IMG/VR virus record: IMGVR_UViG_3300037010_000696
Span: 1-33,672 of that record
Source: a virus
Strand: one strand, 5' to 3'
DNA: 33,672 nt
Positions 28,882 through 33,404 of the stretch are shown one piece after another (position 1 is the first letter of the stretch; every line of letters begins with the position of its first letter). The translations under genes were made by a program, and so were the position numbers. The notes under the pieces are model-generated. The model ran no database searches, was not told the origin of the DNA, and was given only the letters and a program-made list of their open reading frames with translations.

Positions 28882-29865
28882 TTAGCGCGACGGCTTGGCC
28901 CGCCTCGGCGCCTTTCCGTCAACATAGTGTTCGGTCATCTTGAGCGACTTGTGCCCCAGCAAGTCCCTGGCCGACTCGAGGCCGTCAGCGTCTCGAGCAT
29001 CCATCCCGGCCCGCCCACGCAGGTCGTGGATGTTCAGATCCTCAATGCCTGCTCGAGCGCAGGCGCGAACCCAGGCGCTGCGGATACCCGAGTAGCGATA
29101 GCCGCGCCCGCTCTGCGTCTTGAGCACGTGGCCGATCTTGTCGCCTCGAGCGCACGCCTCAATGGCTGCGCGCAGGGCGGGGCTCCATTCGATCAGCAGC
29201 CGCTCGCCGGTCTTCTGCTGAATCACCACCACCCCTGCATCACCCACATCCTGCCAGCGCATCTTGATGACATCGCCGATCCGCTGCCCGGTGAGTAGCG
29301 CCAGATCGATCATCTGGACCAGGGCGGCGCCGTTGCGTGTAGCTTGCAGCGCGGCCTTCTTCAGCGCTGACACCTCGGCATCAGTCACCCACCGCTTGCG
29401 CTGCTCGAGCGTCTTTGCCGGCACGTTGTCGATGGGGTTGTGCCCCTCGCGTAGTCCCTCGAGCGCGGCAAACGCCAGCACCTGGCGCAGCATGGTGCGG
29501 TGCAGGTTGTAGGTGCGAGGGACGCTCGAGAAGTCCTTCAGGTACTTTGCGCAGACTGGCGTCGTGACCTGGGCCGGGCTGAACTCGGCGAAGGACTCGC
29601 CCATGATCTTGGCGATGCGCTCCTGATCCCGTGCTGTCTTCGGCGCCCAGCTCAAGCGCTTTTCGTCCAGCCAGCGCCCGATCACGGCCGGCATGCGGTC
29701 CTTGCTCGAGTCGGCGTCAACAAAGGCCGCCAGCGCCCGATACATGGCCGGCAGACCCTCTTTTTCCCCGCACAGTCGCTGCCACCTCCCGGCCAGCGTG
29801 ACCAGGTAGTAGGCTGAATGCTTGAGGTAGACCCTTGGGGGAAGGCCTGACGATTTGCGGATCAT
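28882..29865 (-). CDS. int: phage tyrosine integrase
   Basis: The product has 327 residues. A short N-terminal arm-binding part (LPPRVYLKHSAYYLV) leads to a core-binding SAM-like domain (about 60-145) and the catalytic domain. Residues R195 (TGQRIGD), H280 and R283 (HDLRG), H305 (LLGHKS) and Y314 (TEHYVDG) form the active site. It lacks the extra helix typical of integron integrases and is a phage-type enzyme. It is coupled to the DUF4224 gene by ATGA and ends 2 bp from an arm-type site. Every Leu-Glu pair is encoded CTC GAG. Confidence 0.93.
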   Translation of the reverse strand: MIRKSSGLPPRVYLKHSAYYLVTLAGRWQRLCGEKEGLPAMYRALAAFVDADSSKDRMPAVIGRWLDEKRLSWAPKTARDQERIAKIMGESFAEFSPAQVTTPVCAKYLKDFSSVPRTYNLHRTMLRQVLAFAALEGLREGHNPIDNVPAKTLEQRKRWVTDAEVSALKKAALQATRNGAALVQMIDLALLTGQRIGDVIKMRWQDVGDAGVVVIQQKTGERLLIEWSPALRAAIEACARGDKIGHVLKTQSGRGYRYSGIRSAWVRACARAGIEDLNIHDLRGRAGMDARDADGLESARDLLGHKSLKMTEHYVDGKAPRRAKPSR

Positions 29866-30092
29866 GCGGCTCTGCGGAGTTTGGGGGTGCGAAGCTGGGG
29901 CTGGTCAATCTTCACCTCGAGGTCACGGCCAGCGCAGACGGCCTCAAAGTGTGTGCGCTCGAGCACAACTGCACCAGCAGCATTCCGGCGAGCCCTGTAG
30001 AAACCTTGCTTACGCAGGGCCTCGAGCTGTGCGCCTGGGTTGCGGTAGCCTGTCAGCTCTTGCAGTTCTTCCGCACTGAGTGTGAGGCTCAT
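29862..30092 (-). CDS. DUF4224 protein, candidate excisionase/integrase partner
   Basis: A 76-residue protein (MSLTLSAEELQELTGYRNPGAQLEALR, later RARRNAAGAVVLERTHFEAV) of the DUF4224 type. These lie directly upstream of integrase genes in many Burkholderiales prophages. The small HTH-like N-terminus suggests DNA binding, so an excisionase or recombination-directionality role is plausible but unproven. GGGGAGGGG precedes the start. Its stop overlaps the integrase start; its start overlaps the leader peptide stop. Confidence 0.78.
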   Translation of the reverse strand: MSLTLSAEELQELTGYRNPGAQLEALRKQGFYRARRNAAGAVVLERTHFEAVCAGRDLEVKIDQPQLRTPKLRRAA

Positions 30093-30142
30093 TCCATCCC
30101 CTCCCCAATATCAATCCGCACCAGCTTTTCAAGGTCGATCAT
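30089..30142 (-). CDS. 17-residue leader ORF (MIDLEKLV type), left copy
   Basis: ATG 30142 has a strong GGAAAGGAG upstream. The product begins MIDLEKLV and ends 17 codons later at TGA, which overlaps the DUF4224 start. A second ORF with the same first eight residues lies at 32774-32854. It probably couples translation of the integrase operon, or is the disrupted start of a longer gene. Confidence 0.45.
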   Translation of the reverse strand: MIDLEKLVRIDIGEGME

Positions 30143-30143
30143 G
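30118..30143. repeat. 26-bp direct repeat, left copy
   Basis: Identical to 32830-32855. Similarity continues imperfectly for about 8 bp towards the array (GTG and TCC shared). The two copies bracket the integron-like array 30144-32829. Confidence 0.85.
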
Positions 30144-30213
30144 TGTGCTCCTTTCCGCGCCTTTTTATTCGGCGCCTTGTGCAAATCCCTTGTGCAACAG
30201 CCACTTAGCGCGG

Positions 30214-30272
30214 GTGTTATGCAGCAGGGTGGTGTTATGCGGCAGGGGGTGCGCCATAACTACAAGTTAGGC
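30214..30272 (+). other. attI-like integron recombination site
   Basis: Two direct repeats GTGTTATGCAGCAGGG (30214-30229) and GTGTTATGCGGCAGGG (30232-30247) are followed by CGCCATAAC-TACAA and GTTAGGC at 30266-30272. This is the architecture of integron attI sites: repeated GTTAC/GTTATGC-GCAG integrase sites, then a simple site ending in GTTAGGC where cassettes insert. The resemblance to class 1 attI is clear by eye. No integron integrase gene flanks it; the neighbouring integrase is of phage type. Confidence 0.65.
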
Positions 30273-30700
30273 ATCACGGACCCTTGCCAGTCCACTTTTC
30301 GTAGATGGCATACCTTCGCCGTGCTGTCTGCACCTTGGCCCTTCAACAGCGGCTCGCCCATGTGCGTCGGGCACTCGCGCTCGTGAATCTTGTTCATCGC
30401 GCTGCGGTACTCGCCTAGCGTGGTGTTCGCCTCGTCAAAGAATCGCGCCGATGGCGGGCACTCCAGCACCAGGCATTCCAAGTTCATCGCCAGCTTGTGC
30501 GCGAACTGCTTCGCTACCTCGTCCATGTCGTCGGCCATCGTGTCCTGCATCGGCATCGAAGCCGGGCGCCCTTCAAAGTGGGCCTTCATGGCGCGCATGG
30601 CATCCCGCACTTCGCGGCCGGGCTCTGCTTCGCGGTACTCCATCGCCAAGTGCAGGGCCTTCGTCACCCATGCGGTATGCAGTTCTTCGTCATAGTCCAT
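30260..30700 (-). CDS. cassette gene 1, unknown function
   Basis: A 146-residue protein. I chose ATG 30700 because GGAGG lies 7 nt before it; in-frame ATGs at 30706 and 30736 are possible. The sequence is acidic and helical (MDYDEELHTAWVTKALHLAMEYREAEPGREVRDAMRAMKAH in segments), with CLVLECPP mid-way and ERECPTHMGEPL near the end. Its start sits just inside attC 30719-30819 and its TAG lies in the attI-like core. It therefore fills the cassette but runs opposite to the attC direction. No family recognised. Confidence 0.65.
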   Translation of the reverse strand: MDYDEELHTAWVTKALHLAMEYREAEPGREVRDAMRAMKAHFEGRPASMPMQDTMADDMDEVAKQFAHKLAMNLECLVLECPPSARFFDEANTTLGEYRSAMNKIHERECPTHMGEPLLKGQGADSTAKVCHLRKVDWQGSVMPNL

Positions 30701-30718
30701 CGACATGCCTCCAGTGAT

Positions 30719-30819
30719 GCCTAACTGTCGGTTCAAGCGGAGCGCCCACGGCGGGTGGCAGTGTCGCGCTCCGGGTAGTGTTGCGGCGCCGTGGTCACCC
30801 GCTTAACCTAGCGTTAGGC
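30719..30819 (+). other. attC: attC site 1
   Basis: R'' GCCTAAC (30719-30725) and R' GTTAGGC (30813-30819). L'' GGTTCAAGCGG pairs with L' CCGCTTAACC except for one extra C in L''. The inner stem continues with CCACGGCG and CGCCGTGG. The extra base on the left arm sets the orientation as plus. Length 101 bp. Confidence 0.85.
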
Positions 30820-31074
30820 AACACAAACAGCCCGCTCGGCAGGCATCGCATGCGTCATCTTCAGCGCACACACCCGCTTGATGAGCTTGCGCCTGGCCGC
30901 CGTGGCTGCGCTATCAGTCAGCACATCGCGGATCACCAGGCGCACCAAAGCATCGGCGTCGCGCTGCAAGTGGTCAAGCCTCTCTGTATCGCCGTCCAGC
31001 ACCACAAGGCCCTGGCTGCGCAGTTGCTGTTGCAGCGGCGCAGAAAGCGCGCCAAAGTTCAGTTCTAGGTTCAT
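30814..31074 (-). CDS. cassette gene 2, unknown function
   Basis: An 86-residue protein from ATG 31074 with GGAG upstream (MNLELNFGALSAPLQQQLRSQGL, later RLVIRDVLTDSAATAARRKLIKRV). The frame is open back to 31116, but that start lies inside attC. Mostly helical; no recognised domain. Its TAA is contained in the GTTAGGC box of attC 1, and it reads opposite to the attC orientation. Confidence 0.62.
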   Translation of the reverse strand: MNLELNFGALSAPLQQQLRSQGLVVLDGDTERLDHLQRDADALVRLVIRDVLTDSAATAARRKLIKRVCALKMTHAMPAERAVCVA

Positions 31075-31098
31075 TCTTCGCACTCCGGAAAAAGTGTT

Positions 31099-31172
31099 GC
31101 CTAACTGGTCGCTCAAGGCGACCTCCTACGGGCCTGCGGCCCTACGTCGGCGCCTTAGCTCCAACGTTATGC
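31099..31172 (+). other. attC: attC site 2
   Basis: R'' GCCTAAC (31099-31105), R' GTTATGC (31166-31172). L'' GTCGCTCAAGGCG pairs with L' CGCCTTAGC, with one extra C on the left arm, giving plus orientation. A GGGCC-centred hairpin forms the loop. Length 74 bp. Confidence 0.85.
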
Positions 31173-31484
31173 GTCCGCGCGCTGCTGCCGCGCAAAGCGC
31201 TCCAGCATCCGGGCTGCAATCGTGCTGTCGTCGCAGTTGTGCAGCGTGAATGTGGAGCCGTTTCGGCCTTCGACGCAGATCGCAAACGCGCGCTTGTCGG
31301 CCATCGCAGCGCGCAGGGCCGCGCAGATTTCCTCCAGGCCATTCAGCGCGTTATTCCAGCCCTTGTGGTGGCCGTCGCGGTAGGCGTGCTTCTCGCGGTC
31401 GCTGGTGGCTTCGGTCAGCCACATGCTGCACGTCTTGTCATACGCCGCCTGCTCGGGGTGGTCGGCATCGAATGGTTTGCTCAT
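31167..31484 (-). CDS. cassette gene 3b, unknown function
   Basis: A 105-residue protein (MSKPFDADHPEQAAYDKTCSMW start; DGHHKGWNNALNGLEEICAALRAAMADKR centre in segments). It is charged and looks like a genuine soluble protein. The ATG overlaps the stop of the 62-residue gene (CTATGA), so the two form a bicistronic cassette. Its TAA lies inside the GTTATGC box of attC 2. Reads against attC orientation. Confidence 0.68.
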   Translation of the reverse strand: MSKPFDADHPEQAAYDKTCSMWLTEATSDREKHAYRDGHHKGWNNALNGLEEICAALRAAMADKRAFAICVEGRNGSTFTLHNCDDSTIAARMLERFARQQRADA

Positions 31485-31669
31485 AGCAGGGTTCCTTCTC
31501 GTTTGTAGGGGTCAATGGCATAGGCCAGCGCCATGCGCAGGTCGCTTACCTTCTCGGCTTCATGGCCGTCGTCGGCTTCAATCGTCGCCAGCACATCGTC
31601 GCAATCGCGCAGCAGGCCAGCGAGTACGGCGTTTTCGTTGCGCAGTTCTTCAATCGTCGGTTCTCTCAT
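31481..31669 (-). CDS. cassette gene 3a, small coiled protein
   Basis: The product has 62 residues from ATG 31669, with AGAGG 6 nt before it (an ATG two codons earlier is possible). MREPTIEELRNENAVLAGLLRDCDDVLATIEADD in segments suggests a short coiled coil. First gene of the two-gene cassette between attC 2 and attC 3. No family recognised; the size and coupling recall a small regulator or toxin-antitoxin pair, without further support. Confidence 0.6.
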   Translation of the reverse strand: MREPTIEELRNENAVLAGLLRDCDDVLATIEADDGHEAEKVSDLRMALAYAIDPYKREGTLL

Positions 31670-31696
31670 CACCATCCTCTCGATTCGGTCAAAGAC

Positions 31697-31797
31697 GCCT
31701 AACCCCTCGTTCGAGGAGAGGCCCAACGGCGTGTTGCTGTGTCTCGCTACTCATGCTTGGTCAGCGCCGTTGGCCCGCCTCAACTCGAACGTTATGC
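31697..31797 (+). other. attC: attC site 3
   Basis: R'' GCCTAAC (31697-31703), R' GTTATGC (31791-31797). The arms CTCGTTCGAGG and CCTCAACTCGAAC pair with one extra C on the left. CCCAACGGCG and CGCCGTTGG extend the stem. Plus orientation, 101 bp. Confidence 0.83.
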
Positions 31798-31892
31798 CGC
31801 AGGTCCACCAGGGCGGCCGCCAGCGCAGCGCGCTCATCGGCGGTCAGCAGGTAGTGGTCCCACGGGTCCAGTTCACGCGGCGTGCGCCATAA
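31761..31892 (-). pseudogene. decapitated cassette ORF fragment
   Basis: An open frame of 43 codons (WRTPRELDPWDHYLLTADER, then AALAAALVDLRHN and a short basic end) stops at 31761-31763 inside attC 3. It has no start codon. Upstream it runs directly into the TAG and attI-like core of the neighbouring cassette. It looks like the C-terminal end of a cassette gene whose start and attC were lost at that junction. Confidence 0.6.
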
Positions 31893-31904
31893 CTACAAGT
31901 TAGG
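31882..31904 (+). repeat. second copy of the attI-like core
   Basis: A 23-bp sequence identical to 30249-30271, ending in GTTAGG. The upstream direct repeats of the first copy are absent here. It joins the truncated cassette ORF to the next cassette, marking a likely recombination joint. Confidence 0.75.
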
Positions 31905-32273
31905 GCTCTCTTCGTCGGGCGGGCTGTAGTCCCACTTCGCAATCAGCGCCATCGCTTGCGGCGGCAGCGGGTTCGCCACCAGCTCGGCCCGCGCCCGCAC
32001 CCAGCCTGCGCACAACTTGCCATCCAGCGGGCTGTGGCACAGAAACGGCCTTCCTTCGGCCGCAGCCTTCAGAAAGTCCATCTGCGTCTGCAAGCACCCG
32101 TTCGGCACGCTGCCAGGCTGGCATGCGCAGGTCTTGCACATCTCGTCGCGCAGTCCTGGGCCTTTCACGCCGTCGAGGCCCATTTCCGCCAGCCGGGCGC
32201 GGCCAAGCTCGGCCAGGCGTGCAGCGTTCTTGCCCATCGCGCGTCCCTCGGGTGTCACTCTGCCGTGTGTCAT
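31893..32273 (-). CDS. cassette gene 5, cysteine-rich protein
   Basis: A 126-residue protein from ATG 32273, with AAAGGA 7 nt upstream (an ATG two codons earlier is possible). The N-terminus is basic and helical (KNAARLAELGRARLAEMGLDG). The centre contains CKTCAC, GC, LCHS and LCAGW, six cysteines that could bind metal. The last residues before the TAG (SPNL) are encoded by the second attI-like core, as in cassette gene 1 (MPNL). No family assigned. Confidence 0.65.
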   Translation of the reverse strand: MTHGRVTPEGRAMGKNAARLAELGRARLAEMGLDGVKGPGLRDEMCKTCACQPGSVPNGCLQTQMDFLKAAAEGRPFLCHSPLDGKLCAGWVRARAELVANPLPPQAMALIAKWDYSPPDEESPNL

Positions 32274-32301
32274 GCCCATGTCCTTTCGCTTCGACTGCCA
32301 G

Positions 32302-32360
32302 CCCTAACTGGTCGCTCAAACGGACGGGCCTACGGCCCGCCGTTTAACTTTGCGTTGTGC
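32302..32360 (+). other. attC: attC site 4
   Basis: R'' CCCTAAC (32302-32308), R' GTTGTGC (32354-32360). L'' GTCGCTCAAACGG pairs with L' CCGTTTAAC with one extra C on the left, so plus orientation. The central GGGCC-TACG-GCCC closes the hairpin. 59 bp, near the minimum size for attC. Confidence 0.83.
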
Positions 32361-32509
32361 AGCACCATTGCTGCGTCGATTTCTGCGTCAACAACCGGCG
32401 CCGCTCGGGTGTCCCAGGCCCAGTCAGCGTCATGCTCGTCCCAGGCACAAATTGCCAATTCGCCGTGGCGCTGGTCTCTCAGCCAGCGGTAGCGCTCAGT
32501 CCATCTCAT
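32330..32509 (-). CDS. small acidic Trp-rich protein running into attC
   Basis: A 59-residue protein (MRWTERYRWLRDQRHGELAIC, then AWDEHDADWAWD). ATG 32509 overlaps the end of the 92-residue gene (TATGAGATGGACTGA), so it is coupled. The C-terminus is encoded by attC site 4 and stops at TAG 32330-32332. It is the last phage-side gene before the cassette array, or the gene of the outermost cassette. Function unknown. Confidence 0.6.
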   Translation of the reverse strand: MRWTERYRWLRDQRHGELAICAWDEHDADWAWDTRAAPVVDAEIDAAMVLHNAKLNGGP

Positions 32510-32774: not shown

Positions 32775-32854
32775 CACAAATCCCCTACTTCAACCAGCGC
32801 GCCTCCCCATGCCTGCCCGATAGGTATCGGCACCAGCTTTTCAAGGTCGATCAT
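32774..32854 (-). CDS. 26-residue leader ORF (MIDLEKLV type), right copy
   Basis: ATG 32854 overlaps the stop of the 185-residue gene (ATGA), and the TGA at 32774-32776 overlaps the next start. The product begins MIDLEKLVPIPIG and differs after residue 8 from the left copy at 30142. Overlaps at both ends suggest a translated coupling ORF. Confidence 0.45.
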   Translation of the reverse strand: MIDLEKLVPIPIGQAWGGALVEVGDL

Positions 32855-32855
32855 G
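32830..32855. repeat. 26-bp direct repeat, right copy
   Basis: Identical to 30118-30143. It covers the first eight codons of the right leader ORF. Confidence 0.85.
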
Positions 32856-33404
32856 CGTGTTCCCTCTTTCCTTCCATCTCTCCGCTCAGTTCTGGCGTAT
32901 GCCAGTCCCCGAGCTTGTGCCTCAATTGGTCTAGGCTGGGCTCCTTTGCCACAGGCGGGGGAGGGAGGGGGCTCAGTCGCATGAAGTGCGTGTAGGGTGT
33001 GGTGTAGCTGGCTGCTCTGGCTGAGCTTGGGGGAGGCACGGCGACATGCTTGCGCACCATCGCAATCATTTCCTTGGCCTGATCTTCATACTTCAGCCAA
33101 CGGTCGCCCCAAGGCTCGGGAATCGGACCACCTTCCCAAACGAGTTCGGTGCACGCCTCTTCTCCGCATTCGTTGGCGCAAAGCTCCCAGGCCAAAGGCA
33201 TCCACTCTTCGGCGTCTTCCCACTTGCTTGCCGGTACCGCCTGGGCCTGCTGGGCGAGGGCTGCGGAGATTTCCCGCTCGGCTTCCCAATACGTCCGCGT
33301 GCGGCTGTAGTCATCGCCCAGCGCATCGCGCTTGATGGCAAGAAGCTCCTGCGTCATTTCAAGGCCGGTGCGCAGCGCCTGCGCCAGTTGTTCGGTGGCT
33401 GTGG

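Follow-up and report, generated by a model that had tools for sequence, protein, structure and literature searches.

The window, by which we mean the whole stretch of DNA analysed (33,672 nucleotides), is an IMG/VR viral record of 33.7 kb. Terminase, portal, major head and tape-measure genes lie on its + strand, and its right end is occupied by a leftward operon in which small genes are followed by a DUF4224 gene and then by the gene of a phage tyrosine integrase (Table 1). An attI site and four attC sites are placed between this last pair and the remainder of the operon. The preliminary description had read the region as a cassette array of the integron type, furnished with an attI and devoid of an integron integrase (IntI), carried by a temperate phage directly upstream of its integrase operon. 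This reading holds: the attC model and the homology of attI agree with it, the xis-like and int genes adjoin the array, and the integron integrase model TIGR02249 matches neither the window nor the longer contig of this phage. The phage integrase is of the ordinary type, with relatives 55-76% identical in other phages and no match to TIGR02249. Three features had escaped the description, namely a second attI core (31879-31904), the reversed direction of the cassette genes and a 107-bp mini-cassette of the delta-attI type. A second contig, from another metagenome, shares 9,937 identical bases with the window and terminates within the array. No similar DNA was found in GenBank phages, and Rfam at gathering thresholds gave no matches.

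Table 1. Features of the cassette array and its flanks (positions in the window)
Feature	Positions	Strand	Remarks
Tyrosine integrase of the usual phage kind, distinct from IntI	28882..29865	-	Pfam PF00589, E 8e-15
DUF4224 protein, xis-like position	29862..30092	-	PF13986, E 6e-9; adjoins int in relatives
attI	30213..30277	+	direct repeats and core; homology to attI of IntI-bearing phage L077
Cassette 1	30267..30813		gene 30260-30706, - strand, 148 aa; stop codon within attI
attC1	30719..30819	+	R1 41.9 bits
Cassette 2	30814..31166		gene 30814-31074, - strand, 86 aa; stop within attC1
attC2	31099..31172	+	R1 55.5 bits, E 2e-11
Cassette 3	31167..31791		genes 31167-31484 (105 aa) and 31481-31675 (64 aa), - strand; stop of first gene within attC2
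attC3	31697..31797	+	R1 44.9 bits
Mini-cassette, 107 bp, with gene remnant, delta-attI type	31792..31899		closed by second attI core
Cassette 4	31900..32354		gene 31893-32279, - strand, 128 aa; stop within second attI core
attC4	32302..32360	+	R1 34.4 bits, E 2e-6
Short phage-operon ORF, 59 aa, ends within attC4	32330..32509	-	sequence reading; promoter-proximal neighbour of array

The four attC sites are real. A covariance model (R1) was trained solely on 25 bacterial attC sites adjoining intI genes in Burkholderiales genomes, which makes it independent of the window, and was scored across the whole window with filters off. It returned exactly the four sites first described, with identical coordinates and all on the + strand, at 34.4-55.5 bits (E 2e-6 to 2e-11); the next-best match anywhere in the window scored 15.1 bits. 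A rule-based scan recovered three of the four, while dinucleotide-shuffled windows gave 0-2 matches each. The folding check proposed at the outset came out likewise: as single strands, the bottom strands fold better than shuffled sequences (z -3.3 to -4.1). R and L boxes, the extra base in L'' and bottom-strand folding, by which cassette sites are recognized, are thus all present, and the consensus of the sites resembles that of Burkholderiales attC. Stretches of 64-72 bp that are 97-100% identical to one of them, attC2, occur in Denitromonas halophila as well as in nine viral contigs besides that of the window. The 17-base attC motif had 12 matches in bacterial genomes, mostly outside arrays.

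The attI site is made of two 17-bp direct repeats (30213-30229 and 30231-30247) and a core (30246-30272) that ends in GTTAGGC (30266-30272), with the crossover after G 30266. It aligns best, over its full length, with the attI of the IntI-bearing phage L077 (score 52, z 12.1), and the alignment extends through the intI leader to the start of intI. Repeats, core and homology to a phage attI identify it as the attI of an integron. The gene that a complete integron also carries, intI, is missing from the window, where no remnant of it was found; four attC sites within 1.65 kb and no integron integrase correspond to a CALIN, which takes at least two closely spaced attC sites. The exact attI core has no match in bacterial genomes, and attI sites of the window type also occur in the viral contigs L175, L176 and L177. 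In two of these (L175 13289-13306 and L176 6197-6214), an attC lies nearby and no IntI match was found in the vicinity.

The second attI core, 26 bp long, matches the first at 25 of 26 positions and ends in GTTAGGG. Delta-attI cassettes, which end in a partial attI instead of an attC, have been described from resistance integrons of classes 1 and 2 (PMC12901181). The second core and the 107-bp gene remnant that precedes it fit this type (PMC12901181, 2026): a partial attI replaces the terminal attC in both, with the difference that the published cassettes belong to resistance integrons and the present one to a phage.

In cassettes 1 and 2, the bases that follow the crossover are complementary to the sequence that borders the attC of that cassette on its 5' side (13 of 13 and 12 of 12, respectively), and in cassettes 3 and 4 the complementarity is partial. 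Such a pattern is expected only of cassettes that have each been circular at some time. The same rule holds in 134 phage cassettes (6.8 matches out of 10, versus 4.5 after shuffling) and also in 110 bacterial ones. DNA 91-95% identical to cassette 1 is present in the viral contig L024, and cassette 4 is 94% identical to a cassette of the viral contig L030, in a match that starts 1 bp from the L030 crossover and ends within attC. Indeed, cassette 4 is among several homologous stretches of 370-460 bp, bounded by attC crossovers, that otherwise unlike viral contigs have in common.

The attI and attC sites of the window have normal polarity, but all the cassette genes are encoded on the other strand and run in the direction of attI and of the phage int gene, with stop codons that fall within attI or attC sites. 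The usual arrangement, in which a gene follows the polarity of its attC (a property that is not strictly required of a cassette), is found for none of them. This direction argues against a Pc promoter that points outward and drives the cassettes. The comparison was extended to viral contigs gathered in two ways: the 17-base attC motif, which is blind to gene direction, led to 28 of them, and the IntI of one motif contig led to 32 with a full-length IntI, the query contig included. Polarity was assigned with the strand-specific covariance model, the rule-based scan being ambiguous at symmetric sites. In viral arrays, genes called by a codon model were opposed to the polarity of attC or followed it in a ratio of 79:1, and a model-free count of the longest ATG ORF gave 82:10. 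Bacterial integrons of the Burkholderiales, with identical model and gene criteria, gave 2:24 and 6:82, respectively, in a comparison that uses simple gene calls, a single bacterial order as control and, for the most part, the viral status assigned by IMG/VR. A replication set, gathered subsequently with the phage attI sequence as query, showed a ratio of 11:1. The published phage TJE1 appeared in canonical orientation under the same model, meaning that the method is not biased toward reversal. As far as sequences can tell, opposed cassette genes are the general condition of viral arrays.

Nineteen phage IntI proteins from IMG/VR and one from D. halophila form a single clade (support 100/99), whose nearest bacterial neighbours, joined with weaker support, include a class 1 integron. 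The phages that carry these genes have a common layout, an operon of reversed cassettes that is followed by attI and intI. One of them (G005) also possesses terminase, major head, tape-measure and primase genes. In the 40-kb phage records G005, G335 and G336, IntI is the sole PF00589 match, and intI is situated at or near the end of the contig.

In about half of the intI-bearing records, a second tyrosine recombinase gene stands directly beside intI. The second PF00589 protein is encoded directly behind intI on the same strand in L060, L064/L065, L067, L072, L073, L074, L076 and L077, and on the opposite strand in L063, L071 and L075; PHROGs identified it as a phage integrase in the five cases tested. 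We considered that IntI might replace the phage integrase and rejected this as a rule: most intI-bearing records encode a second tyrosine integrase. In G005, G335 and G336, IntI might conceivably integrate the phage as well.

Three further groups of contigs deserve mention. L012 and L056 are devoid of intI and have an int 73% identical to that of the intI-bearing L060; they seem to have lost intI, as the window probably did. L032-L037, which have a similar int and no IntI, carry no array. Eight viral contigs (L083-L090) encode divergent IntI proteins outside the phage clade, with few attC matches, and perhaps represent another integron group or host DNA. They were excluded from the argument; two of them were part of the orientation input and yielded no calls.

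The search for arrays at the same place in related phages, suggested in the preliminary description, showed that IntI-bearing phages keep the module there and differ in its cassettes. Among L078/L079, L080/L081 and L082, whose intI genes are identical (1000 of 1000 bases), the first cassette next to attI is of three different kinds. In L065, an extra cassette that L064 lacks is inserted precisely at the attI crossover, and the intI genes of the two are identical over 1005 of 1005 bases. L156 and L160 are 99.9% identical over 4 kb, intI included, and have unlike arrays. Such differences between near-identical phages, which involve whole cassettes placed at the G|TT crossover and leave the adjacent intI unchanged, indicate that the phage system moves cassettes. 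This natural turnover, read from sequences, leads us to infer that the reversed integrons of phages are active in recombination. No turnover is visible in the window phage itself because its only other copy is identical.

We interpret the region as the remnant of a phage integron of the reversed type that has lost its intI gene, and put the probability of this at roughly 0.8. Reversed cassettes upstream of a phage integrase are there, and the IntI of the phage clade is not. Since the homology of the window attI to one attI of the phage clade runs up to the start of intI, the gene was most likely lost, and this is how we read its absence, rather than as its never having been in the window phage. 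Descent from an intI-bearing ancestor rests on this homology because the IntI-less relatives L032-L037 show no array.

In its full form, as found in related IMG/VR phages, such a system is an accessory operon of the phage that leads through the cassettes into attI and intI. The phage IntI would recombine attC hairpins into attI, so that cassettes could be inserted, removed and exchanged, with insertion presumably proceeding through single-stranded attC bottom strands, as is established for integrons generally. Since its gene runs against the polarity of attC, a captured cassette would become the last gene, at the distal end, of an operon read from a phage promoter, which would probably transcribe all the reversed cassettes in place of the integron Pc. 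It may even be, more speculatively, that this transcription leaves the bottom strand of attC as the displaced non-template strand and thereby favours its folding and recombination. The window array would be fixed unless a co-infecting phage, a second prophage or an integron of the host provided IntI in trans; the window phage would presumably depend on such a supply and benefit from the cargo.

More generally, we consider it probable that temperate phages of Proteobacteria have an integron class of their own, with a monophyletic IntI and a specific attI, often next to the phage integrase, and with a separate pool of reversed cassettes that are read as part of the phage operon and pass between phages. 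Some of the contigs taken from IMG/VR may represent proviruses whose ends were trimmed, or may be misassembled in their arrays.

An alternative, which we regard as unlikely, is that the array is a fossil, in which attC-like repeats are retained for transcription attenuation or as mRNA hairpins between operon genes, with no present recombination. That neither the window nor the longer contig from this phage encodes an IntI would agree with this, as would the decayed R' box of attC4 (GTTGTGC) and the GTTAGGG end of the second attI core. Boundary complementarity, the presence of the same cassettes in other viral contigs and the turnover in intI-bearing phages speak against it, and it could at present be true of the window phage alone.

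The preliminary description had the array captured from a host integron. A piece of chromosomal integron, attI and cassettes together, could have been picked up as in the Vibrio anguillarum phage p16, the reversal then being due to chance or selection, and the Burkholderiales-like attC consensus and the 98.6% identity of attC2 to an attC in the D. halophila genome could be taken in this sense. We find this origin improbable: bacterial arrays are canonical, the best match of the window attI is a phage attI, and the shared cassettes reside in viral contigs. Moreover, the D. halophila locus itself has an IntI of the phage clade with reversed cassettes. It occupies the end of a bacterial contig (L154 15957-18649, in G034:C14 of strain SFB-3), where the array adjoins ordinary chromosomal genes; it is probably a phage-chromosome junction, and SFB-3 is a possible cultured host. 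Reversed genes, an attI matching those of phages with the phage-clade IntI, and closest copies of cassettes and of attC2 in viral contigs lead us to disfavour capture from the host. Exchange of cassettes, the other half of that proposal, stands, with different partners: the nearest copies being viral, the integron of the window phage looks to have traded mostly with other phages, and exchange with host integrons is possible. Finally, a chimeric assembly of a phage and a bacterial integron, conceivable in a metagenome and with a second contig that ends inside the array, is hardly credible, given that this contig, assembled from a different sample, matches the window without a difference over the junction, that the array genes are continuous with the phage operon and that many other phages have the same layout.

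Phage CALINs and integrons, and their activity with IntI1, were already known. Qi et al. (2023, PMC9892861) describe arrays of attC sites in phages both temperate and virulent, some of them without IntI, and report that IntI1 recombines five of six tested phage attC sites with attI1. These authors describe the cassettes of TJE1 and PH101 as having the typical direction, whereas those of the window type are reversed; the IntI proteins that they list are of the Vibrio, class 1 and Shewanella types; and the text consulted reports neither a phage-specific IntI clade, nor a systematic reversal, nor a link to the phage int. A search of the GenBank phage collection found no IntI of the phage clade; its best matches were class 1 IntI proteins from P1-like records, together with the cases that Qi et al. 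had reported. Likewise, no cultured phage of the reversed-integron type is known from our analysis, and the GenBank phage set contains none. With the chromosomal integrons of the Burkholderiales and with class 1 integrons, the phage type shares the attC consensus, the G|TTRRRY crossover, the position of attI beside the 5' end of intI and a related IntI; it differs in that its genes read toward attI, and bacterial ones away from it. The 'reverse integrons' of Treponema, in which the intI gene is flipped, likewise have an unusual orientation of integrase and cassettes relative to each other, whereas in the phage type the relation of intI to attI is normal and the genes are flipped within the cassettes. 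We found no description of reversal as a rule, of the phage IntI clade or of its position beside the phage integrase in the open-licence literature, preprints and subscription papers lying outside the search.

If this interpretation is true, phages possess a dedicated site-specific means of shuffling accessory genes, orphan DNA methyltransferases included, part of phage mosaicism is explained without homologous recombination, and cassettes can be adapted to a different transcription logic. The separation of phage and bacterial cassette pools by gene direction becomes testable, and the findings suggest that a reservoir of integron integrases and cassettes is still to be explored. As to the cargo, Pfam and PHROGs were run on 102 phage cassette proteins, most of which received no assigned function; those that did include DNA methyltransferases, PAPS reductase, DHH and RNA ligase, and PADLOC added further methyltransferase models.

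Two repeats in the window may be recorded besides. A 52-bp sequence, present at 30100-30151 and, 85% identical, at 32812-32863, flanks the array on both sides, and each copy, with a short leader ORF (MIDLEKLV...), continues into the start of the next gene. At the end of the contig (33412-33672), a low-complexity GGAGCC repeat with several open frames is possibly a repeat-rich gene or an assembly end.
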